Positions 3,041 through 24,300 of a DNA stretch of 64,000 nucleotides are shown one piece after another. The notes below the pieces were generated by a model. The model was not told the DNA's origin, did no database searches, and saw only the letters and a list, made by a program, of their open reading frames with translations. Each line of letters begins with the position of its first letter. Positions within the stretch are counted from its first letter, which is position 1. A program made the position numbers and the translations under genes. The stretch is from Capitulum mitella (taxonomy: Eukaryota; Arthropoda; Thecostraca; Pollicipedomorpha; Pollicipedidae). Location of the stretch: NCBI GenBank assembly GCA_030062745.1, contig CP099844.1, positions 26,474,596-26,538,595 on the forward strand, read 5' to 3'.

Positions 3041-4229
3041 ACGTAGTACAAGATTCCCGGGAATAAAAATGAGCCGATGAATGTCTTAATTGCGTATGTT
3101 TTGTCATAGTTTGGAAGCTATGCGTGCTATGATATGGTAGCTCTCAAACATTTCAAAACATTTATGATATCGCGCAACTTTGATTACTTTACGTCGATAA
3201 TAAACCTAAAAGACTTATTCGACACACGAATATTTTAGTTAAATTAAACAAAAAACAAATGTATCAATGACTAGTTTTCAACACTTCCAATACACTTGAG
3301 GACAACAGACTCACAATATTTCTGATCGGAGACGGAACGTCTGGCCTTAGCAGGTGTAGTTCACTTAAGTAACAACATAGATATAGGAGCTTACTGTATC
3401 TATGGGCAACACCTTTGGTATCAATGGGTAACGTGTTTTGAAACAGTTTTGAACATTTTTTCATCAGTAACTAGGGTTAATGTTAAATTTTACCGTCTCA
3501 GGAGGTGGGGCACAGCGCTCAAGCAGTTCAGTAGTTCCACAACGTCCATGTGTTTCTTCATGATGAGCTAAGACATTTTGGTGTCCAAAAAAGACCCAAT
3601 AATTGCATTTTGTATCTTTATTTTTTGCATGAGTATTTGACCTAGCACTCTGTTGTCAATTCGTCATTGCTTCTATTAATGAACATCTCTCTACGATGGA
3701 CAGAATCCTTTTCAGCCAACCTTGGGCCGTCGTAATCAGCTGTTGTGTGTTGATCCCATTCAACTACGTCGACGGTGCGGCGTGTGCGTTAAGTTTGCGG
3801 TGTTTTGCTAGTGATTGCGGCTGTGAGTAGAAAGGTACGTCTTCATAATCTCGGTTTTTGAAACGTTTTCGTAACGCCACCTTGATAAATGCTAGGAATT
3901 CGTAACCGCAATTTGCTGCTCTGCAAACCAACCAATGTTGGTTTTCTGCCGCCATCGTCTTCGTTTGCAATGTACTGTCCTGAGAATGGTGTGCAGCTTT
4001 GCTTTTCAGAAGTGTTTTCAAGGCACAAGAAAATATCAAAGCATTGTTTAGGTTCTGATTGGGTTTTATTGTGGTTGAAGTGGAAAGATAACTGATTTCA
4101 TAACACACATTGCTTGTAACTTTTTCATTTGTGCTGTAATTGTTTTCCGATTTCTGGACTATTCTTTGTGCATTTTGGATTCATTGGACATTGGTTATTG
4201 TCAGGCATAGAACTATCTATTCTTCTGAT

Positions 4230-7463: not shown

Positions 7464-8301
7464 AAGTGCGATGTCAGGCCACTGACTGATGACATCATTC
7501 TCCAGGTTATGTTCAGTTCAGGAAAGACAAATATTTTCTTCCATGATTAGCATCAAAATGATCTCAGATAGGCTATCTTTCTGGAACTAAATACAACTAA
7601 CATTGAATTGATGCAACTTCTGAAACCATTTTAACAGCAAAGAAGGTGGGGCAGTGGTCTGAGGTGCTCTCATTATCTCTGTGACCTGAAGAGCTCACTG
7701 TGTAGAGCAAAGTAAATATCATTCTTGAAAAAAATGAGCCATTCTACTCATGTTTAAACTGCACTGGATGCCATTCTAACTAGAAAATCACTATTCTGTT
7801 CACTGGTTCTGTTATGTTGCTCTATTTTGATTCAGAGGGCAATGAGCTGGGCTGTGGTCAATCCATCATTAATTGCTGCATGGTGGAAAAAATTCCTTTT
7901 GGCATTGCATCGTTGTAAAGAATTAGCATTTCTAGCTAGCTTTGTGTTAATAGAGGCACATTTTTTGCGATAAGATCACTTGAGCTATTATAGTCACAAA
8001 TAAGTGAACGACCATTCCTAATGTTAAATGGGGTCATATATAACTTTCATGTTCTGGAACCAGGCATTCATAGTTTCTTTGATGGCAGTGCTTTTTGAAA
8101 CATATCCCAAGCAGGCTTGTGCCTGATTTGCCTAGAATGAATCAATTCACTTTTAGATTTCTGGAGTGGTCAATGGACTCTGACTCAGATTTGTTACTTT
8201 ATTTTAGCCGAATCAGTTCAATTTGGGTCCTGAGTCATCAGTGAATTGATTCAGTTTTTGTTTGGCTCGGAACTTGTGGATTCCATTTATAGTCCATGAA
8301 A

Positions 8302-8907: not shown

Positions 8908-11900
8908 ATGGCGGGCCGCAAGTCGGAGCCAGCCGTCGTTCACCAGGTGTGGGACGCCATCCAGAGCTGCATGGCGCAGCGGCAGCAGCCCAACTTCGAG
9001 CGCGTCTCCAAGTATATGCTGCGCTGCAGCGCCATCTCGCCCGGTGAGCCGGTCGCTGCCGTTCAAGTGGAAGTTGTTTGCGATGCGGGAGTTTTGCTAC
9101 CTGCTCGCGTTGTCTGCGGCACGGCATTGGCTAGTTGCTGAGAACAACGCGGGGAGGAGGGGAACAACAGTTGGGATCAACTGTTATGTAGAATGCTACA
9201 TCATGCTACATCAACTGTAGCCTTTTCACGGTTTGTCGTCATTTGGATTGTGGCGTTTGAAATCACTGCAGTGCATACTATTGAAGCTGTCCTTGTACCA
9301 CCATACAGTGACAACAGCAGAGCTGCCGAGCATAAAAAGGTCTTATTTTTGCGGTTATCCCAATGCGTTATCGTCTTAAATCATTGTGTTGTTCTTGGTG
9401 AAAAGCAAACGAAACATTTCTCTCCCGGAGAACCGCCGTGTGCGCCTGTGGCATTCCGACAAAGGCAGTCGAAACTTTGTGCATTGTTTTGCCGGTTTGC
9501 AAAGTTAGTTGCTAAGGCGTTTGTTGCGAGGCTTCAGAATCAATGAACTGCCGCGTTCAGCGACTTCCCGACGCACACAACCGCAGCATTTACTGCTTTA
9601 CCTGGCTTTCAGCCTTTCGGCATCCAACTTTAGCTGGGGGTCCCTAAGTCTTGTTTGTCTGCTCCTCTACTTTCACTATGCTGGATGGGTATCGTTTTGC
9701 TGTGGTCTCAAACACTAAAGGGCTCATTCGCTTGAGGGGAAGCTCAGCACGTTTGCATTCTTTTGCTTTCTGGCAAAACCTGTTGAAGACTCTTGGTTTT
9801 CTGCGTAGATGCCATTGAAGAGGAGCTGAACAAGGTTGTAGAAGACGGCCTGGTGCGATTTATGCAGCGATTGGGCGCCAAGGGTTCAAAGAAGGGAGAG
9901 GAACAGGAGCTTTACAAGCTTCCCAAGGGACCCGTGAGTTCAGATTTTGGTAGCAAGGCATTGCAATTAAAGCTCACTAGAAGTTCATTCAGATGCTTGA
10001 TCTTGTTGATTGGTTTTGGAGTTGAAAGGTGCTAAATATTGAAACTGCAAGATAAGCAAGAGTATATGCTTTTGCGACAATCGCTCCACATTCATTTTGT
10101 TTCCTTGTGAATATTGAGTCGGATGGCGAGAGATTAATACGGAGACTTGACTGGAACGGACTGTTCAAAACCACTGTCAGAGTGCCGCGTCCGTTTGACT
10201 GGTGACGAGCATCACAACCTGTGTACGGCTGACGCCTCGGCGTCCGCGCGCCGCCGGTCGGCCCCTAACCAGTGGCCGCCGCTGCCGTCAGCCGCCGGCC
10301 AGCGACCACGACTGGTACTGCGCCACGTGCCACCAGCCGGGCGACCTGCTCTCCTGCACCAGCTGTCCGGCCGTCCACCACAACAGGTGTCTGACCGAGG
10401 CGCAGCGGCAGACGCCATTTACCTGTCCCCAGTGTCAGGTGAGGTCAGACACAGTACACCTGACACCAGGGACAGGTGAGGTCAGGCGCAGTACACCTGA
10501 CATCAGGGACAGGTGAGGTCAGACACAGTACACCTGACGTCAGGGACAGATGAGGTCAGACACAGTACACCTGACACCAGGGACAGGTGAGGTCAGACAC
10601 AGTACACCTGACACCAGGGACAGGTGAGGTCAGATACAGTTCACCCATTCCCATTGTCAGGTGAGGTCAGACACAGTACACCAAACGCCAGTGTCAGGTG
10701 AGGTCAGATACGATACACCCGACACCTTTATCATGTGAGGTCAGATAGTTCACCCATTACCATTGTCAGGTGAGGTGAGATACAGTACACTTAACACCAT
10801 TGTTAGGTGAGGTCAGTTGCAGAACACCTGTACCCAACATCAGAGACAACACGGCACCCCCCTTTCATTTCTGGACTAGCAGAAATATATCCCAGTGGGG
10901 GGAGCATTCCTTGTTGAATTTATGTTTGCAATGACATTCCCTGTTGGTCTGTTAAATGCAGTTATTGGGCTTTGCCACCAGAGGTGATTATGCTGGCAGC
11001 TAATCATAATCAGTACCTACTGGAATCGCGACACGGGAAGCACGTGCCATCTTGACTTGTGCCCACCATAATCAGTTGTGTGTTGTTGTTTTTGTTCGTC
11101 CGTTTAACGCTGTATTGAACGTTGGGGTCAGATGACGCAGCGTCTGTCGCAGCTTGCTTGTTTGGGTCTATTTTGTGTAGTTTATGTGATTTGAATGCAT
11201 TTGTTTTCGTTTCCAGTGTAATTCGAATGACGTGCATTCATGGTTTTTCAACAGATGTCTGCATCAGAAATGTGTGATATCAAGAAGAAAACACTAAACA
11301 CCCTGCTGGGATATACCATTCTCCGCCTGAAAGCAAGGGTGAGTTCATAAAATTTACATTGTGGAACATAATGTACCTTTATTTTGCAAGGTCTATTCGT
11401 TTCTGCTAATGTCCATTATTGCACTTAGTGTCCTTTAGAAGTTTGGGTGTTATCAGACAGGCTTAAGTTTCAGCTTGGCATGATCAAGTTGGAACTTTTA
11501 AAGTTTTGAAACATCGAGTTTCCTTTACGTTTGTTCCATATGAACAGACTGTTTTCCTACTACCGTTGTCATTGTGCGGGAAAGGAATAGATTGCTCCAC
11601 TTTTAATGCCTGCTTTCACCTACAGTGACCAAGCTGTGGTTTGTAGCGTTAGCAATTGATTCTGGGTACTCAGTATTGTATTGCAGTCTTTTATGTAACA
11701 GCCCATCAGATGCTTAGAGTGGATCAAAGGGCAATTCATTCTCTTCTGCTGTCCTCGTACACTGTCCGTCCATTTGTCTGTTGAATGGAGGAGGCTGTTC
11801 TGGTGATGTCTTGTAATCTAACTAGAGTTGTCTGATGTTCTTCCCTGTCCGGTATGCTAACGAAAGTTGTGTGTCGTTTTGATGCCTTCTGATGCTTTGA

Positions 11901-14900
11901 CTGAGTGGGTTCCCGGGGGCCTGCAGATGCTGCCGCTGTCTGGTACACTAACTGGAGATGTGTGTCATCTGATGCTCTGACTGAGTGGGTTCCCGGGGGC
12001 CTGCAGATGCTGCCGCTGTCTGGTACACTAACTGGAGTTATGCGTCATCTGATGCCCTGACTGAGTGGGTTCCCGGCGGCTTGCAGATGCTGCCGCTGTC
12101 GGTGGCGGACGCCGGCGTTCTCTCCCCGAGTTCGGACCCGGACCAGAGGTTCCGCACCGACTACCTGCTCTACAGGCCGCTGGAGATCTACAACATCGAG
12201 GACAAACTGGACAGACAGGTGATACGCCGAGCCCTCCGGTCGGCCGGACAGTGGGACCTCCGCGAATTTTCCGTATCTCTGGTGACATAAAGTCGTGGAA
12301 CCGCCGTGCATTTCAGTGACTTGTGTTCGATCGTCTCACACCGTAAGACTTGATGATGTAGCACGCCGTGTTGATGTTTTGGGATTTCGGTTGTTTCCGT
12401 TTTTGTGACTTGTGTCTCATGGGCGGTTGTCCTCGGACTCAGGTGTACAGCAAGCTTTCCGACTTCGAGGGCGACGTGCGGTTGGTGGTGCACAACATCA
12501 TCGTCATGAACGGAGGTACGCCGCCGGCGCTCCACGCTCTTCTGTCTTGCTTGCCCCAATAGCTGTCTTTTCTCAGATGTCATTTGTCGGCCACACTGCT
12601 CGTCGACCATCGTTTAAACTGGGCCGGAGGGATGGTATTTACCTGTTACGGTGGTGTAGTTACCTTTGCGGATGACCGCCTGTCTGCCGTCCCCTGCACT
12701 GTGCTTGTAACGTGACCCCTCTCCGCCGCCGCCCCCTGAGCTCTGATGAGGCGTCGTCTGCCGGCCGCCAGCCGAGTCGCAGGCAGCCACGGTGGCCAGC
12801 CAGGTGCTACAGGACTGCCTGTACGACATCCAGCAGATCCGCATCTGCCGCGACTGCTACCGCATGTCCAACGAAAAACCCGGCAAGAACTGGTTCTGCC
12901 GGCCCTGCCGGCCGCTGCACGAGCTGGTCTTCGCCAAACAGAAGGGCTTCCCTTTCTGGCCAGCGAAGGTAAGCCACGGGCGGCGGCATCGGGTCTGGTT
13001 CCGCTGCGGTTTAACGATACTGATCTTTAAATATGGCCGTGACAGGCAGCATTGTGCTTTCCCACGGGTGGTATATTGAACCATAATACTTTCGAAAAAT
13101 AAGATTTTAGGCATTGGCGGTTGGCAGCGTGATCCCAGTTGTTTTCTGGCTTGGTTCCTTTGGCCACTCACGTCTTGTAAGCCTCTGAACTGGTCCTTTT
13201 TGATCCAGACGTACCGCAGTGGACAGCCCCACTTGTTCATTGCTGCGTTTGTCTCCTCGTTCATTGGCGGATGCTTGCCCTACACGTTCAGACGGCCGTT
13301 GTGAACGGTGTTTTCACTGCAGGTGATGAAGGTGGAGAACGACATGTTTGACGTACGTTTCTTCGGCGAGCCGCACGAGCGGGCGGTGGTCGCCCGCACT
13401 CACATCCGACCCATCGACACGTCGCTGCAGGCGCTGCAGGTGGGTAGGTCTTGGCGCGGTCTCTTTGTAGAGGGATAGTCGTTAGAACAGTTAGGTTTTT
13501 GACTTTTTTACTAAATATTTTGACACCCGTCTGGTGGGCAGTACATCTTGAGTCAACTGCTTTGAATAAAGTGTTTTCATTGATCTTCAACGCAAATTGT
13601 GTTGGAGACTCATCACTGTGATACGTTCTGTAGCGCCTCTGGTCTGCCAAACGTTCCCTCGCCGCAGATCAAGCGGTCGAACCCGTGGACCCGCGCCCAC
13701 GACGAACTGAAGCGGCACCAGGCGCAGCTGCGGCGGGCGCAGGAGGACCCGTCTGTGCTCAACTCGGACACCGAGTTCGAGTCGGAGCCGACGGAGTCGC
13801 CGACGCCGCCGCCGGCCAAGCGGCGCCGCCGCGCCTTCGACCCGGACGAGGACGGCGTGGTCGAGGTCAAGAACTGCTCCATCGTCGTCCAGAAGGTGGA
13901 TAACGACAAGCAGGTGGGTGCCTGGGAGCCGATGGGCTTATGTTAGGTCTGGCTGTCGCCTTTTCCTGAAGGGGTTAAGAGTACGTGTGATCAGAAGTTA
14001 TAAGGAATTGTCGAGGATCCAAACGTATGCCTGCTTTTTCCGTTTTCGTTGTACACACGTGTGAGTTACCCACCTCTTTTCCTGTTGCTGTTTCTGTCCT
14101 CATCCATTTGGTCTTCCTGCTGCCTGTCCTGTGTCTCGGCGTTGTGATGGTTATCCGCCGTTGGCCACCCGATGAGGTCCTGGACAGTATTAAACGTCGC
14201 GTGATAGTGTCGGCTGCACACTGCACACACGACTGTCTCGTTACGCACCCCGGGCTGTCTCTGCGGCAGTGTTTGCCGTCGCCGGACGACCAGGTGACGT
14301 CGTCGTGCCAGGAGCCGCAGCCGAGGACGGTGGCCACGCAGACGCCGGCCAAGTTTCTGCGCGCCGCCACCGCCGACCACCAGCAGGTGAGTCGCCGCTG
14401 ACATCTCCGCGCCCGTCAGTCTCTGGCTCCCGACACACGGCAGACACAGCGCCAGCTGCCGTGTGACTTGTGACGTGGGACGCGAAGACAGTGCCGTTTC
14501 CCGTCCTACGTGTGTGGTACTTTCCGTGGTGGAGGCCAACATCACCGTCTGTGCCTCAAGCGTGGCCGGAAATCCCGTGGGTACGGCCTAAACCCTCTCC
14601 AGTATTCGGGTATTTCCCATTAGGCTTATGGTAATGACAACAGAAACCGTCCGAAGTCCTATGCCGACGCACCCCCTCCCTCCCCTCTTCCCAGCAATGT
14701 TCGGAAGTCTCCGGCGATGGCCCCGCGCTCTGTCTGTGACCAACCTCTGCCTCGTCCCCAGCCGAGCTCGGCCGGCACTGAGGAGCGGGTCCGGCAGCTG
14801 GAGAAGGAGCTGGAGCGCGCCCGTCAGGCGCACAAACAGGAGCTGGCCAGTCTGGAGACGCAGCATCGCCAGCTCCTGTCCGCCTCCAAACGCAAACAGT

Positions 14901-15289
14901 GGTGCTTCAACTGCGAGCAGGAGGCCATCTACCACTGCTGCTGGAACACCGCCTACTGCAGCACAGAGTGCCAGCAGGTCAGCGCGCCAGCCCGTGACGT
15001 GAACGGATGTTGGCCAGCCATGCTGGCCTGAGGAATCTGGATAATTACCACTATTACCAGAAGGGTATCGAAAGTACTCGATTTTTCATCAATTTGTGGC
15101 ATGTTTGAGAATGAATGGTAGCGTATTTATTTCCTGTGGACGACCTTGTTCGTAAGCATTGTGTGGTTTTCCGTGCTTGTCTGATTGTTCAGACAACGTC
15201 TTCTGACAACTGTCACCGTCCCGGTGTCTCCCCAGGTCCACTGGCACAAGGAACACAAGCGAGTCTGTCGCCGGAAACGTACCCTGTGA
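8908..15289 (+). CDS. ZMYND11: ZMYND11 (BS69) orthologue, chromatin reader; 12 coding exons, 547 aa
   Basis: Coding exons: 8908-9043, 9809-9933, 10292-10438, 11255-11338, 12087-12218, 12443-12515, 12772-12968, 13323-13439, 13668-13913, 14270-14386, 14762-14977, 15236-15289. All have GT donors and AG acceptors, phases agree, and the total is 1,644 nt. The exon 10 start could instead be 14294. In vertebrates ZMYND11 binds H3.3 trimethylated at K36 and restrains transcription elongation; its MYND domain recruits partners with PxLxP motifs. Domains: N-terminal helical region 1-87; PHD about 94-136 (WYCATC to CPQC); bromodomain about 145-250; a zinc ribbon (ICRDC...WFCRPC); PWWP with FPFWPAK (292-298) and VRFFG, holding candidate aromatic-cage residues; a basic KRRRR nuclear signal near 388-392; an acidic Ser/Pro linker; a coiled coil about 463-500; MYND about 505-545. 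Vertebrate proteins are about 600 residues; the coiled coil is shorter here. Two junctions carry tandemly repeated splice sites. Confidence 0.95.
10428..10843 (+). repeat. 37-bp minisatellite reiterating the PHD-exon 5' splice site
   Basis: About 11 units start at the exon 3/intron 3 boundary of ZMYND11. Each repeats CAG|GTGAGGTCAG and then ACACAGTACACCTGACACC-like sequence. GT positions are 10439 (true donor), 10476, 10513, 10587, 10624, 10661, 10698, 10735, 10770 and 10807; the unit at 10550 has GT changed to AT. Spacing is 37 bp throughout except one 35-bp step. Most copies keep a consensus donor (CAG or TAG before GTGAGG). Because 37 is not a multiple of three, later donors shift the frame, and the exon's own frame stops at 10514-10516. 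Confidence 0.95.
11881..12100 (+). repeat. 80-bp triplication of the bromodomain-exon 3' splice site
   Basis: Three near-identical 80-bp units end in (C/T)TGCAG at 11926, 12006 and 12086, the last being the true acceptor of ZMYND11 exon 5. Each copy includes the first 14 bases of the exon (ATGCTGCCGCTGTC). The two upstream copies then run into GGTACACTAACTGGAG, whose ACTAAC resembles a branch point. Weaker copies extend to about 11810 (for example GGTATGCTAACGAAAG). Splicing at either upstream AG reaches an in-frame TGA before the true exon. Confidence 0.93.
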
Positions 15290-15309
15290 GCGGCGCCGCA
15301 AGCCATCTC

Positions 15310-15968
15310 CAGCCGTGTCTGACGCCTGGTGTCGCCACGTCTGACATCTGGTGTCGCCGCGTCTGACATCTAGTGTCGCTACGTCTGACGTCTGGTGTCG
15401 CCGCGTCTGACGTCTGGTGTAGCCGCGTCTGACATCTAGTGTCGCCACGTCTGACGTCTGGTGTCGCCGCCTCTGACGCCTGGTGTCGCTACATCTGACG
15501 TCTGGTGTCGCCGCCTCTGACGCCTGGTGTCGCTACGTCTGACGTCTGGTGTCGCCGCCTCTGACGCCTGGTGTCGCTACATCTGACGTCTGGTTTAGCC
15601 ACGTCTGACGTCCAGCGTAGCCACATCTTACGTCTGGTGTCGCCACGTCTGACGTCTGGTGTCGCCGCGTCTGACGTCTGTTGTAGCCACATCTGACATC
15701 TAGTGTCGCTACGTCTGACGTCTGGTGTCGCCGCCTCTGACGCCTGGTGTCGCCACATCTGACGTCTGGCTTAGCCACGTCTGACGTCCAGCGTAGCCAC
15801 ATCTGACGTCTGGTGTCGCCACGTCTGACGTTTGGTTTAGCCACGTCTGACGTCTGGTGTCGCCACATCTGACGTCTGGCGTGGCCACATCTGACATCTG
15901 GTGTTGCCACGTCTGACGTCTCGTGTCGCCGCCTCTGACGTCTGGTGAAGCCATGTTTGACATCTGCT
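15310..15968 (+). repeat. 22-bp minisatellite downstream of ZMYND11 stop, about 30 copies
   Basis: The unit is close to GTCTGACGTCTGGTGTCGCC plus two variable bases (GC, AC). It begins about 20-30 bases after the ZMYND11 stop, so it probably lies in the 3' UTR. Variants differ at a few positions (GACGTC/GACATC/GACGCC; GTGTCGCC/TTTAGCC). Long reading frames cross the array on the minus strand, but they are by-products of the repeat. Confidence 0.95.
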
Positions 15969-18372
15969 GTCTGGCAAAGGCTATGCGCGGCAGACCAGCT
16001 GTGACAGCCCCCGCGTCCCGGGACAGCCGAACATACGGGCCGGGGCAGTCGGACGGCGGACGGGGTGGTGGCTGCCACCAGGGCTGGCGGACGTTCCAGC
16101 GGTGGCACATCGGTGGCACGGAGGGAGCCCGGCCCCGTGTCGCTCGAACGTCCCCCGGCCGTTTGAATAACGGCAGTCAGAGCGGCGGCGCCGCGAAGGT
16201 GCGGCGGACTGACAGCTACCCAAGCGGACTGCCAGGGTCGGCGCCCGCGCTGTGCGGCTCTCGTGAGACCGCCTCCCTGGAGCCGCGGCGACACGCCGTG
16301 GGTCGGGCCGGGCCGGCCGGACGCGCTCCACGTGTGTCAAAGCCGCCGCCGCCGCCGCCGAGGCCGCGCTGCGATGGTGCCGGACTGCGGCCGCACCGCT
16401 GCCGACGGACGGCGACCGCCTGTACCGAGCTTAGACGTAGTGGGACTCTGTATCGTGTGCTTACCGTGCTGTGTTTATTCGCCGGCTGGCCGCTCCCCGC
16501 GGCGGAGAGTGGGCGCGGCCCGTGCTGGGTTCCGGTGATCTCTTCAGGGTCGGATCGTCTCGGCCGGACGCCGTGGCCCTAAGCTGCTACTGTCCACCTG
16601 CACGGGGGCACGGGGCCTGTGCAAATGGCGCCTCCCGGGCCGGACCCGGCTCAGGACGCCCACCACAGGGAGGCGCCCTGCTGGAGCGCGCTGCACGCCG
16701 GGGAGGCCGCGGCGGCGCGTGCTGTAGCTCAGGGAGAGGCGGCTCCTCTCTGTAAATATCCGAGTGTGGCAGGGCATTGTATCCCGTCTTTCTGCGGGCG
16801 TGCAGGTGCTGGCCGCACGGCGCCCGGGTGTCTCGGCCGGGACCGGGACGCTGTGGTGTGACTAGTCTGTGCGCGGCCCCCATATCAGCGGCCAGGGGAC
16901 TGCCGCGCGGCCGCGCTGGCGTCCACGTTCAAACGGTGCGCGATACGCGGTCATCGTGTGCAAACGCCGTGTTCAGATGATTTGAGCGGACTGGCGTGCG
17001 ACTGAGGTGGCCCGTGATTGGCCATTGGGGTTGTGTGGTATTTTTAGCACCGTTTGCTTGTAGTGTCTGTGTTATGCACCGATGAGAGGTGTCAACGATC
17101 CAAAGGCGTTCGCGATCCGGGGGAAAATTGACACGATGAGAGCTGATCAGCTGACCTCTTTTGACCCATTTCTTGCCTTTTCCACCGTTCTTTGATTGTG
17201 GAGACAACATTGGACATGAGTAGTTTGGAGCCGTTGATGTTCACATTTCCTCCCTTGAATCACGTACGTGTACGCTCCACTCAGGCACGGCGGCCGCTCT
17301 CTCGACTCGACCCGCTCGATCTCGCGGGGTCCCGTTCCGACCGAGCACGACCGTCTTCACGGCGTGCTCGCCCGTGCGACCCGCGGTCTGGACGTGCTCA
17401 GACAGAGGGCCGTCCGGCCCTGGGCGTGATTGTCGCCGGCGGGCGCGCGCTGTTCAGACGCTCGCGGCCCCGGCACCGACGCCTGCGGTCAGTCGCCGGC
17501 ACGGTCAGCCCGCACCGCCGCTGTGTCTTGCCCGGGACGGAGCCGTGTCGTAATATATGTCCACATTGATCATCGGTCTGTGTGGCTGTTGAGAGAGACG
17601 GGCAGTCTGGCTGCCGCCGAGAGGGACAGGCCGGCCGTCCGGCCGACGAACCGTCCGCTCCTCTGTGCGAAAGCTCCGCAACGTTTCCACAGGGCCAGGG
17701 ACAGCAGATGTTGCAGGGGAAGCCGGCCTGCTACTGATCACGAATCGATCGAGGACGTTATCAGTGGGATGAATCACCAATGGAAGCCAGGGCTAATAGA
17801 GGTCTGAGCAATGGCTGCGGGCAGGTCTGAACTCGTCTGGCCTGGGCACATCCTTCGTTAAACGCAAGCAAAATTATGGAGTACCAGCATTTCAGTGACA
17901 CATGGTAAAAGTAACACGTTTGCTGAAGAGACCAACCCATGAAGCCCGAATGCTCTCAGAAGCCCGGAGTGGGTGTGACTACGTTGGCCCGTGCTCTACG
18001 TTGCGCTGTGGCGTAATCGATTACAGTGACCAAAACGTAACAAGACAACCTGCGCTGGGCGTCCCCGGATGCCTGGTCCCTGGCGACTATCTACCGAACA
18101 CGTTGTGCACTACGCCACCGGTGTGCTGTTTAGGTGCGCTGGTCATATCCGAAGCACTGCAGCCACTTTCTAGTCGAGTTTTATGAAACTAAGCGGTACT
18201 TTTTTCACGCATGGCGGTTTAACGGACGTCCGGCTCTCCAGGCAGCGGTAGACAAATACCAAAACCGTCATATGAAAGCCACTGCACAGCCAAGACACGC
18301 CATCCGTCAACTCGGACTGTATTACATAAACAGGTGAAGCGTCACACACAGGCAGCGGCCGCCGCCCTGCCC
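15969..18372. other. GC-rich spacer between convergent genes
   Basis: This interval lies between the 3' ends of ZMYND11 and PSMD1. It is CpG-rich to about 17.7 kb and then closer to average. No exon is supported. On the minus strand an AATAAA (complement of 16474-16479) is a possible but distant polyadenylation signal for PSMD1. I saw no canonical AATAAA for ZMYND11 near the 22-bp repeat. Confidence 0.5.
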
Positions 18373-21300
18373 CTACTCTTCGTAGTCGAACGGCTCGGGC
18401 GGCTCGGGCTCGGCCTCCTCCGGCTCCTTCTGCGGCCCGTGCGCCACCACCCAGTCGACCAGCTGCTGGGCGCCGTCGCCGGTGTCGCGCACCATCAGGA
18501 TGCCGCCCGAGCGCAGGTCCTTGACCGTCTGGTAGCGGCTGCCCTCGGGCGGCTGCACCACGCGCAGCTGGTGGCGCAGCACGCGCGCCGGGTTCGACAG
18601 CATCTCGAACGACGGCTCCTCCTTCTTCTTGGCGTCCGCCTGCGGGCATGCGGGGTCGGTTCGGTCTGAGACACAGACAGGGAGGCAGCGGAAGAGACAG
18701 GGACGGTGTCTCAGGGCGGACAGGCTCCGACCGCCTGGAGGGGACGGAGGAACCCAGACTACAAACGTCCCAACCAGGTGCTTGAGGTGGCCCACACAAC
18801 GCGACGCTCACGTAGTATCATTTATACAAGACGGTTTTCATATCATGGTAAGATAAACGAGTCACATGCTACATTACTTGTATCTTCTTGCAATTTGCTG
18901 GAAAGGGCTAAAGATCCGCTAGGGATACGTCCGAAAGAAGTAGCGGCACCACCGCACCTTCTCCTTCTCATCCTTTTCGGCGTCCTTTTTGTCCTTCTCC
19001 TGACCGGCGTCCTTCTTGGTGTCGTCGTCCACGTCCATCTTCTCCGGCTTGTCGTCCTTCTTCTTCTCGGCCTCCTTCCGTTTGGCCCGCGCGGTGATGG
19101 ACAGGACGGCAGTGGCCACCTGGGGGGCAAAGCACACACGTTAACAGTCGACACTTGCAGCGGGTACGCTGTTACATATTATAGTGTTAAGTATAAAGCT
19201 TCAGGCGTCGACGCTATTTACTGTCGCCTCGAATGCCTTTGTCAAAACAAATTCCCCCCGTTCAGAACAGCTGTTTTTTCTCCAAAACCTCGCATCTTGG
19301 CCAGCTTGGCCAACGCCCACCAAAACGCCTTTCTTCCTACCACAAGGCCACAACCTGTTTCCATTTGACTTACTCCTATCACCTACAGACACGAACACAC
19401 CCTCGCCGCCTCCACGCCCACCTTTTCCCGGTCCTCGCGCTTCCTCTCCTCGATCGGCGGCGGGTAGGCGTACATGCTGGGCCGCGCGTTCGAGCGGAAC
19501 TCCATCTGCGGCATGCGCAGGTCGGCGTTCAGGCCCACCAGGCAGGTGGGCGTGAACGCCAGACAGAGGAAGTGCGCTAGCGGGTACCAGAACCAGTACT
19601 GCGTGAACACCAGCATGCCGACCACGGCCGCCATGTTGTTGTGGCCGGTGCGCGACTGCAGCGCCACCGTCACGTTGCGGCCGCCGGCGTCGATGATGCC
19701 CTTAGCCAGGATGGCGCCCAGCTTGGCCATTACGTCCTCGTGCTTGTCAGACACCACCTTGGTGTAGAGCTGGCGGAAGTCCTTCACCTGCCGACCGGCG
19801 TGGGAGTTTACACGTGGTTGGTAGTTTACACGTGACCATTTAGGCGGTAACGCTTGATTCACATCCCGCAAAACCCAAAGCCCTTTGTGGCTTTGGAATG
19901 CCTCGAGAAGTCGGCACATTCAAGTTCGCTGGAATGAATTATCAGAATGCAAGCATTACAAAACATTCAACCCCTTTGCCTGGACAACGTAAAAGCGTCC
20001 CTCCGACATGAACAACAATGGCGTCCACAGTCCCGCCCACAGCGGAGTCCACAACCACGCCCAGACGCGGTCCACAACAGTCTTCTGCGCAGCTCAGCGG
20101 ACGGCAGTCCACGCGCGGGCCGCCTCACCTTGGGACAGGTCTGCTCCGTCTGCTGGATCAGCACCAGCGCGCTGGCGATCAGCGCTCCTTGGCGCACGTA
20201 GTTCACCAGGTCGTAGCACATGGGCTCCAGCAGGTACAGCGCCTCCTTGGACCCGGTGCCTACGCAGGGCAGACGGGAAGTCACAGGAAGCAGACAGCAT
20301 GGGACTCGTCGCTGATTACCCTTGGGTGGGTTGGAGTGCTCATGTTTCACACACCGCACAAAAGTGCCTCGCAAACAGGAAATGTTCCAAGAAATGACTT
20401 AAACCGATGGTTGCCAACCCAATTCACTTCGTCTGTCTCTTTTAAAACCTGTCATTTAAACGAGGTTTCAACGACAACCTCAGAAACGGAAATAGTATTA
20501 TCACTAAAGACTAGAAGAATTACGCCAAAAAACCGCTGCCAAACATCACCCAACACCGCGTGTAACTAACAACATTCTACGGACCGCCCTGGGTCGGTCG
20601 ACCTAACTGCCCTTCACCCGCTGCATCCAATGTTCAGATGAATCCAGAGTTGCTCCGCGCGATATTCCTCACCTGCGCAGGCCACGCCCAGCGCCATGGC
20701 GGCGCCGTAGCGCACGTGCGGGTTGTACGACTCGGAGAGCAGCGACACCACTGACGGACACTGCTCCGGGTTGTGGAACAGCAGGAAGCCGATGGCGATC
20801 ACGGCCGCCCGACGCACGTCGTCATTTACGTCCGACACCTGGGGACGGGGGACAGCAATAACGTCCGACACCTGGGGACGGGGGACAGCAATAACGTCCG
20901 ACACCTGGGGGCGGGGGACTGCAATAACGTCCGACATGTGGGGACGGGGAGCAATAACGTCCGACACCTGGGGACGGGGGACAGCAATAACGTCCGACAC
21001 CTGGGGGCGGGGGACAGCAATAACGTCCGACATGTGGGGACGGGGAGCAATAACGTCCGACACCTGGGGGGCGGGGGCAACGTCCGGCACCTGGGGATGG
21101 GGAAATAATCAAGTCCGACGCCTAGGGGTGTGTGATTCATAACGCCCTAAGCCTAGTGACGGGGAGCAATCACGTCAGACATCTGGGAACAGGATACCAA
21201 TGACGTACGACGCCTGAGAACCGAGGGCCAACTTAGTCAGTCACCTGGAGATGGGGAATCAATAACGGGCGACACTTGCGGACAGGGGAACAATAGCGTA

Positions 21301-24300
21301 GAACTGGGGTCAGATGCACACGATAATGTCCGTCAACTGGGCTCAAATGCAAACAACGTCCGACGACTACAGACAGGAGAACACTACTTCAACTGAGGAC
21401 AGATTCAAGAGCATTCTGGAGCAGTGGGCGGAAAGCATTGAAGGACACCTAAGACACCTAGGAACAGGGAGCGGAACTTATCGGAAGACACAAAGAACAT
21501 GGTAAATAACAAGGGCATGTGCACAGATACATCAGCCATCTCGCAGTAGTAAAGGAAAAGTGCGAACGTGATGTGAGTCTGTGAAATTCAGTGAAGAGAG
21601 AGTACATGCCCTTGTCATCTATCATGTTTTCTGTGTCTTCTGTAAAGTTAGGTAAAGAGACAGCACACGCCCTTGTTATCTACCATATTCTTTGTGTCTC
21701 CATAAAGTTAAGTGAAGAGAGCACTGTTATCTACCATATTATCTACCATGCCCTTGCTATCTACCATATTCTTTGTGTCTTCTGACAAGATACATGGACA
21801 CACCTGCCCTTTTGCAGGAGCAAATGGAAAATTCAGCAAACGTGAAATGAGAGTCACGTTATGTGGAGACACAGATATTAGTAAGTGCCATGTCTGATTT
21901 ACAGTGTCTATAACACCATGAAAAAGTCGTATGGAAAACAATTCATTTTCCTTCTTTTCCGAAAAAAGTACTGAGAGACAGGGCAATAATCAACTACAAC
22001 TACAATACGATAAAAGGTCAGGGTGTCGCTACAAAACCCTACAGTCTACAACCCCCTTGCAGAGCGCCTTGGCCCTCCGCGACGCCGCCCTTCACTGACC
22101 GCCACGTGCAGGAGCCGGCGGATGGCCTGATTGTTGCCGGTGCCGCAATACGCCATGGCGATGGTGTACATGCCGCTGCGGCGCAGGATCGGGTCCTTGT
22201 CCGAGCACAGGCTGGTGATGAGCGTGTCGGCCTCCTCCAGACGCTCGTACATGGTGAGTGCGATACCTGCCGGACCGCGCGCGCCCGAGCGTCAGACGGC
22301 CCGTCACGGCCGCGGGTCAACCAAACGCCGTGAAGATGGTCGCGCGAGCTCCGGCATGTGCACAGTACAGTAGGGCACCATCAAATCCATACAGGAATAC
22401 CCAAATATGAACGGCTAAAGATGTACTGGAGTGACCAGCACTAAAACCACTAACAAACTGCTGTCAGACCTCACGAAGAAAACAGGACGTGTCCGTCATA
22501 AGGAGTCCCCTCGTTTAACCATGGGTGTCGGCACGAGACGCAAAGATCGCGAAACATACACATATTCCAAAACAAGCTCCCATGAATTTCAGCCAACACA
22601 ATGAGCCACCGCCGCATAAATGACGCCCTGGGCGGAGGCGTCCGTTCTTGCCGGCAGTGTCCATGTCTTTCGAAGGCGGAACACGCGGCTCCCGGGGCCC
22701 CGGCGGCACTCACCGACGGCCAGTCCGCGCAGAATTTTCTCGTGCTGCGTCTCCTGCGAGTAGGCCACCATGTCCTCGATGGCCTGCGCCGACTTGGAGC
22801 CCAGCATCACCAGGCCCATCGATATGCCTGTCCGCCAGGGCACAGGCGGGTCAGCAGGTGATGGAAACAAAACCAGGTTATTGGTGATGCAGGTAGTGTG
22901 TCGATTCCCGTTCTCAAACTTAACAAGCAAAAAACTTCATTACATCCATGAATGGGATATCTGAGATATTTCGTAGTGCTTCAAAACCGAAAGTCATTCC
23001 CTATAAGGCATCCCGCATTGTCCAAAAGTATCTCGGATTCTAAAACAGCAAGTCCCGCACACATTCACGAGGGCACACCGAACATTTTAAAGTCTGTTTC
23101 TTGTCCCGCCCATTTCCGCCGTAAACATCGACAACGCCGTCTCCAAGACCAAAAGGCGGCCGAGGCCGGGGACCGAGCCGTCCGACGCCGCTGGCGGCAC
23201 TGACCGGCCGCCTCGCCGGTGACGGCGTCGTCCTGGTACAGGTTCAGCTTGAGCTGTTCGTAGATGTCGGCCCGGTGCGTGCCCATGGCCGCCAGGCCGA
23301 CGCCCAGGCAGCCGCCGTGCCGCACCACCTGCCGGCGGCGGCGGCCGGCGTCAGCTCTACAGACGGCAATCCGGCCCACCGTCCAACCGCCAAAGGGCGG
23401 GGGACCGGCCAATGGAGTTTCAGGCTGCTGACTACGTGGTCATCAGGGACGCAACCCCGTCGCATAGCTTCATTCGTACCATGGGTGGAAGTCCCACAAT
23501 GGACGCGGAAGGGAAGCTGTAACTATTACTACTCCATTCCCGTGGGACACATTATATGCGTCTGCTGACTTGTAGAAACTGCAAATTCACGCAACACCAA
23601 CAAAACCAAAAACTTCAGTTTTTCTCAATGTCATTTCGGTCCAGCCATCCCAGGCGACATTTCCCATCTCAGCGGCATCCGCATCCGACCGCCGCCCACC
23701 TCGTTGTTAGCCTCCTTGAGCTGCTGCACGAGGTAGTCGATGATGGCGGCGCCGTGGTTGACGTGGATCAGGCCCAGGGCATACAGGGCGCCGCCCTCCG
23801 TGTAGCCCGAGCTGCCGGCCGCGTCCTTGGGTAGGTAGGCCTGCATCAGGCCAAGAGCCTCCTGCGGGGGCGGCCGGAGAGAGATGTGAGACACGCCGGG
23901 GAAGGGGGGGGGGGGCAGATCGGCGGCTAAACAGACCCGCCAACCGGCGCCCCTGAATGCCGGAACGCTGACCCCGCGTCGCAAAACGCAACACACGTCA
24001 GGCAGATAGAATCACGAGCCTGGGAACAGAAGCTCTCCATTTTGCTGCAACGTGCTTGGATCTCTGTCAAAATCGGCGAGATTCCCAATTCTCATATTCC
24101 CAGTCCTCTGTACTATATCAAGTGACGTTTATTATGCAACAGCTGTCAAAGATAGCGACACCAGAACGCCGGTATTGTCGTAGACCGGTACTGGCGTACA
24201 AATTCAGTAGGCTGGACGACCAACACACACACACCTTCTCGTGGCCCTTGTGGATGACGCCCAGTGACGCGGTGGCGGACATTTTGGCCCAGCTGTACGC

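Follow-up and report, generated by a model that had tools for sequence, protein, structure and literature searches.

Why should three minisatellites, lying within 11 kb in two neighbouring genes, each sit across an exon-intron boundary? The question is raised by a window of 64,000 nucleotides (nt) from the genome of the barnacle Capitulum mitella (contig CP099844.1; G000:C6:26474596-26538595 in our numbering), which holds a ZMYND11-like gene on the plus strand and the PSMD1 (Rpn2) gene on the minus strand. An initial annotation of this window had noticed three tandem arrays, with units of 37, 80 and 33 bp, that span splice junctions, and it knew of no named class for them. Such a class exists in amphioxus, where these repeats are called mirages (PMC3087553, PMC3902484), and the window arrays are minisatellites of this mirage type. 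We think it probable that they are tolerated because the copy adjoining the exon still works, and that GC content together with this tolerance, not targeting of the junctions, explains where they are found.

Three arrays and the junctions inside them

The arrays are real. Tandem Repeats Finder (TRF) places them at 10421-10830 (37 bp, 11.1 copies), 11888-12100 (80 bp, 2.7 copies) and 20828-21077 (33 bp, 7.7 copies, with a higher-order period of 96 bp). A model-free duplication test, in which the 30-mer centred on a junction is searched for a repeat within 400 bp and scored as matches out of 30, gives 26, 27 and 28 for the three array junctions, and at most 20 for the remaining 47 of the 50 junctions listed for the two genes; shuffled sequence has a median of 16 and a 99.9th percentile of 20. 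Exons were predicted with a tightened version of a hand-made gene finder, and among these 50 junctions the three array junctions and the joined PSMD1 and ZMYND11 stretches are backed by homology, the others being gene-finder output or read by eye. With the boundaries set by homology, each of the three lies inside the repeat unit, one as a donor (37-bp array) and two as acceptors (80-bp and 33/30-bp arrays), on both strands, as the initial annotation had it. The annotation was also right that the splice signal is copied many times, most copies carrying a functional-looking signal (GT in ten of 11 ZMYND11 copies; AG lost in two of nine PSMD1 copies, those at 20937 and 21033), and that the outer copies are degraded, divergence being higher, by inspection, with distance from the exon.

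The first array (10421..10830) carries the donor of the PHD-finger exon of the ZMYND11-like gene (10292..10438, the start being a gene-finder prediction). Homology puts the authentic donor after base 10438, in the most upstream copy, which is followed by ten further copies spaced 37 or 35 bp; of these, seven score 10.9 bits as donors, two score lower and the GT is missing from one. Across the 11 copies the donor word CAGGTGAG occurs in eight and TAGGTGAG in one. By inspection, copies close to the exon resemble one another, those farther off have diverged, and the exon copy itself is different. Translation that continues past the exon ends at a stop 25 residues on, and use of either of the two copies ahead of it would change the frame. 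Then follow an exon at 11255..11340 (homology-backed, ends set by eye) and the second array (11888..12100), which carries the acceptor CAG/ATGCTGCCG, the slash marking the boundary. Here the authentic acceptor, that of the exon at 12087..12218 (gene finder, homology and duplication test), is the last and most downstream of three, and both decoys, before 11927 and 12007, lead to an early stop. The spliced part matches 4cos_A (ZMYND8) over residues 2-235, a range that includes both array junctions, and 4n4g_A over residues 55-269, which includes the acceptor junction of the second array. A search with the 401 bases from 12000, across the end of the second array, matched its own locus only, in a search that skips very common words and that covered this array alone.

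The match to PSMD1 extends over 248 residues without a gap (E 8.4e-139), and the spliced part aligns gapless to 6epc_N through the junction LLHVA/VSDVND, at the edge of the third array. This junction joins the exon upstream of the array-bearing intron (22100..22266, ending in RRLLHVA; gene finder and homology) to that at 20673..20838, whose authentic acceptor, just upstream of base 20838 (gene finder, homology and duplication test), is the exon-adjoining copy of the array (20828..21077). Six spare acceptors are intact, with their exon sides at 20871, 20904, 20967, 21000, 21063 and 21090 (the last just outside the TRF span), that is, 33, 66, 129, 162, 225 and 252 nt upstream. All six are in frame without a stop before the exon end; with a generic matrix written for this analysis they reach 9.3-11.5 bits, the authentic site 11.5. 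The array is open in the frame of the exon through all its copies, despite a unit that alternates between 33 and 30 bp.

In all three arrays, then, the authentic site is the exon-proximal copy, so that the exon stays at its shortest and the array extends into the intron. Contig C1 has at least 13 further arrays with the donor motif. Of the exons upstream of these, nine were compared with Pfam, and a domain was found in four (ALMS motif, F-box, CAP-Gly and dynein AAA_8). For the two whose next exon was read, joining at the proximal copy extends the domain, and in both cases the next exon has an AG ahead of it in the right phase: the CAP-Gly match rises from 57.8 bits (profile positions 1-46) to 88.9 (1-65 of 65) and the dynein AAA_8 match from 46.3 to 125.5 bits. 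Nine of the 12 scored arrays follow coding-like sequence, with a codon score that only 2% of 4,000 random positions reach, and three do not; the codon model was trained on the window exons, the random positions came from blocks of contigs C2 and C3, genes included, and the array at C1:4794690 was left out of the scores. We infer from these joined reading frames that the exon-proximal copy is probably the one used in the mRNA.

Frequency of arrays at unselected junctions

The initial annotation had argued that three such junctions within 11 kb are unlikely by chance, a claim that depends on how often junctions carry arrays elsewhere. One sample consists of 30 protein-kinase exons with 500 bp on each side, chosen from 138 matches without sight of the sequence, by working down the list by hand and keeping those whose open frame did not exceed 150 codons; five qualifying matches (C3:31159061, C13:8860108, C1:3882697, C5:22245670 and C5:4406394) were passed over unseen, two of them being second exons of genes already in the sample. 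Arrays are found at two of the 60 junctions, with scores of 30 and 26: one of 60 bp at the acceptor of L058 and one of 28 bp at the donor of L070. Pfam confirms a kinase domain in both, and we take the first to be a GSK3-like kinase and the second a myosin-light-chain-kinase-like gene. The other 58 junctions score at most 20, the highest being the L078 acceptor with 20, and 21 two or three bases off. Doubt attaches to the donors predicted for L068, L073, L077 and L079, and the acceptor of L063 is 1-2 bases off; in these five loci no repeat was flagged at the exon or past it, apart from a short tandem run that TRF reports in the L063 intron.

A 50-kb block at a pre-set position of contig C2 adds a six-exon Exo_endo_phos gene with one of its 11 predicted junctions duplicated; this is the donor at block position 8100, which recurs in seven more copies, diverged and mostly spaced by multiples of 36 bp. 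The unselected total is thus three of 71 junctions with arrays, or 4.2% (95% interval 0.9-11.9%). The 71 do not include the remaining exons predicted in the C2 and C3 blocks, which were few or weak; among those left out is a C3 donor near block position 3326, where sequence right next to the donor has a match of 23/30 at a distance of 113 bp. Over the window and the unselected samples the boundary-spanning units measure 28-80 bp. At the rate of three in 71, the probability of at least three in 50 junctions is 0.35. The argument from improbability fails because three in 50 is what this rate leads one to expect, and the count in the two window genes is not above the genome background.

The interior of exons looks different. 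Over the 30 kinase loci duplicated positions make up 13 of 5373 inside the exons (0.24%) against 1011 of 27270 in the flanks (3.7%, a few of them in neighbouring exons), and by this count of positions junctions show no excess, two in 60 being similar to the rate of the flanks. Judged by this difference between the inside of exons, their junctions and the introns, arrays are tolerated at junctions about as readily as in introns.

Tolerance, composition and the other explanations

A short tandem duplication could by chance start on a unit that spans an exon-intron boundary, and the array would then grow into the intron, in our view by slippage or unequal exchange. Donors would be taken from the first copy and acceptors from the last, with the spare copies lying in the intron. 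Such arrays would persist because the exon-adjoining copy keeps an intact splice site, the duplication behaving like intron; tolerance, one of the options that the initial annotation had offered, is the best reading of them. That some junctions are hit would follow from a minisatellite-rich genome, with many GC-rich arrays, combined with GC-rich DNA next to the exons. The GC content is 62-65% within 40 bp of the exon match and about 50% past 100 bp, and this gradient alone could make junctions more prone to arrays.

The main alternative is the other process suggested by the initial annotation, namely a local mechanism that favours splice boundaries as starting points of duplication, such as AGGT-type slippage or breaks linked to transcription or splicing. 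We regard it as unlikely, and the data do not require it. Part of the evidence on it comes from triple matches, i.e., a word found three times at 15-45 bp spacing, counted over the genome searched (477,042,490 bases, 16 contigs) and normalised by single occurrences. The donor word CAGGTGAG has 1171 triple matches for 22,952 single occurrences, and its reversal 86 for 9,377; in arrays this amounts to at least 13 among the matches listed, which cover the first 43.7 Mb of C1, against 21 genome-wide for the reversed control. Three of the 13 (L012, L034 and L038), with no convincing exons, are retained in all array counts. The neighbouring word CAGCTGAG, which is not a donor and differs by one base, has 481 triple matches for 27,227 single occurrences (reversal 26 for 10,200) and at least 33 arrays among the matches listed (147.5 Mb). 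For the AT-richer donor AGGTAAGT the figures are eight for 9,343 (reversal four for 21,008), with four arrays against at most four for the reversal (P = 0.26).

Several results weigh against composition and tolerance as the whole story. CAGGTGAG exceeds its reversal 2.8-fold in arrays per occurrence (P = 0.006), and it exceeds CAGCTGAG 2.9-fold in triple matches (5.1% vs 1.8%), a ratio inflated because one long array supplies 46 of the CAGGTGAG matches listed. Counted as events, with our own counts and space estimates and with an assumed 40-bp unit and assumed intron sizes, array starts in the unselected sample fall at junctions three times and within introns ten times, a 3.1-fold excess (P = 0.10); adding the window, which was selected for arrays, gives six and 13, a 4.0-fold excess (P = 0.01). 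In addition, conservation among copies is higher in the splice core than elsewhere in the unit, both in ZMYND11 (0.97 vs 0.82) and in PSMD1 (0.94 vs 0.87), and also in two further arrays whose copies had been selected by that very signal; neglect alone would not lead one to expect this.

The excesses, of about three- to fourfold in the event count and nearly threefold for the donor word, would be expected if boundaries were targeted, and so would the position of AGGTAAGT above its own reversal and the coding-like sequence and Pfam domains found upstream of the C1 arrays. However, the reversed word is a poor control, because the non-donor CAGCTGAG also far exceeds its reversal, and per occurrence CAGCTGAG is nearly as array-prone as the donor itself (0.39% vs 0.62%, a ratio of 1.6, P = 0.19). 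Donors of the AGGTAAGT kind seldom form arrays, a search for arrays that starts from a donor motif is bound to be biased towards donors, the rise in GC at exon edges confounds the comparison, and the count by positions shows no junction excess. Since AGGTAAGT is rarely and CAGCTGAG often found in arrays, composition seems to outweigh donor identity in array formation. A junction preference of up to about threefold is possible beside it.

Three candidate signals were set aside. A strong donor effect, read from the reversed control GAGTGGAC alone, was dropped, CAGCTGAG being also array-rich and above its own reversal. For the acceptor motif CCCTGCAG there were 339 triple matches, and 186 for its reversal, counts that are not normalised for single occurrences and belong to a motif too degenerate to interpret. 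Screening 51 array units from the window, C2, C3 and the kinase loci for a shared minisatellite core found GACACC/GGTGTC in seven, with 1.3 expected, which was judged probably not significant for the best of about 2,000 words.

It is much less likely still that the spare junctions are kept by selection for use, as reserve sites or for isoforms, in which case the inner acceptors of PSMD1 would add units of 10 or 11 residues in frame. The number, frame and strength of the PSMD1 spare acceptors agree with such a role, as does the conservation of the splice core. Yet a single array in frame could easily arise by chance (a unit that is free of stops and of a length divisible by 3 is, by our estimate, a matter of about 1 in 5), the other two window arrays are out of frame or run into stops, and the PSMD1 insert would land in a region that is gapless against human-type PSMD1. 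Finally, that the arrays are an assembly artefact is barely credible, short tandem repeats being error-prone in assemblies and one amphioxus mirage having been reported as misassembled in a draft genome (PMC3087553), but the copies being here mutually different and diverging away from the exon, with similar arrays at many unrelated C1 loci and in the unselected samples.

A known class of repeats in an arthropod

Repeats of this kind are known from amphioxus. In the amphioxus globin genes BflGb6 and BflGb9, minisatellite-like duplications of intron-exon boundaries were called mirages after earlier work on Adh3; they are unstable in length, seem to leave regular splicing undisturbed, and were proposed as a route to new introns (PMC3087553). 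Further amphioxus examples are in PGBD5 and troponin C (PMC3902484). The barnacle arrays resemble these in having a tandem unit that spans the boundary, at donors or acceptors, with AG or GT in many and not all units. For amphioxus, homogenisation within the cluster is described, with the edges excluded (PMC3087553, PMC3902484). The barnacle cases differ in their arthropod host and in being found at about 4% of the sampled junctions; and whereas in amphioxus splicing is reported to be undisturbed (Adh3, globin) and array length to be unstable, the barnacle arrays are known from the sequence of one assembly. That the host is an arthropod agrees with 150 scored matches in its genome to Chitin_bind_4, a cuticle family that marks arthropods, all of them above the family's cut-off.

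Two other systems are close. Human paralogues in segmental duplications have tandem repeats at exon-intron boundaries, which are reported to alter splicing and to give rise to new introns (PMC2812944). The minisatellite variation at exon-intron boundaries is common to both, but the human case concerns recent paralogues and has RNA evidence, whereas the barnacle arrays are in conserved genes and were read from DNA. In potato a duplication crossing an intron-exon boundary produced an intron (PMC4974935); it was likewise tandem, but there a single duplication gave a new intron, whereas the barnacle has multi-copy arrays at the edge of an intron.

Our literature search, which left most subscription journals outside, found no report from barnacles and none under the name of mirages outside lancelets. 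What is new here is the occurrence of mirages outside cephalochordates, a first estimate of their rate (about 4% of junctions), and the PSMD1 array with its six intact spare acceptors in frame. In the papers found, mirages were described gene by gene in lancelets and offered as a route of intron gain; their presence at a few percent of arthropod junctions suggests that they are more than a lancelet oddity. The barnacle genome is a natural test ground for that model of intron gain, and for the choice among many nearly identical splice sites. One may speculate, at long odds, that the mirages of this barnacle lineage form a permanent reservoir of movable splice sites throughout the genome, on which intron sliding, intron gain and the in-frame accretion of protein draw (e.g., 11-residue units at an Rpn2 junction), with a moderate preference for GC-rich donor junctions.

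Some further features were seen along the way. An array of 22 bp and 29.8 copies at 15317-15971 (plus strand) begins about 28 bases past the ZMYND11 stop codon (15287-15289), and arrays are therefore not limited to junctions; the C2 Exo_endo_phos gene likewise has a 29-bp array directly past its stop (C2 block 11285-11531). In PSMD1 a second array, of 61 bp and 2.2 copies (21590..21720, minus strand, TRF), lies wholly within the array-bearing intron. At C1:4794690-4796793 (L020-L033) a 45-bp donor-like array has more than 40 copies, and a second array, of 40 bp and with CAGGTGAG, follows about 0.9 kb on (L026). The kinase exons of L062 and L071 appear to end at GC donors (GCAAGT). Elsewhere in the window, the minus strand has at 134-311 an exon that presumably belongs to a gene resembling a short-chain dehydrogenase.

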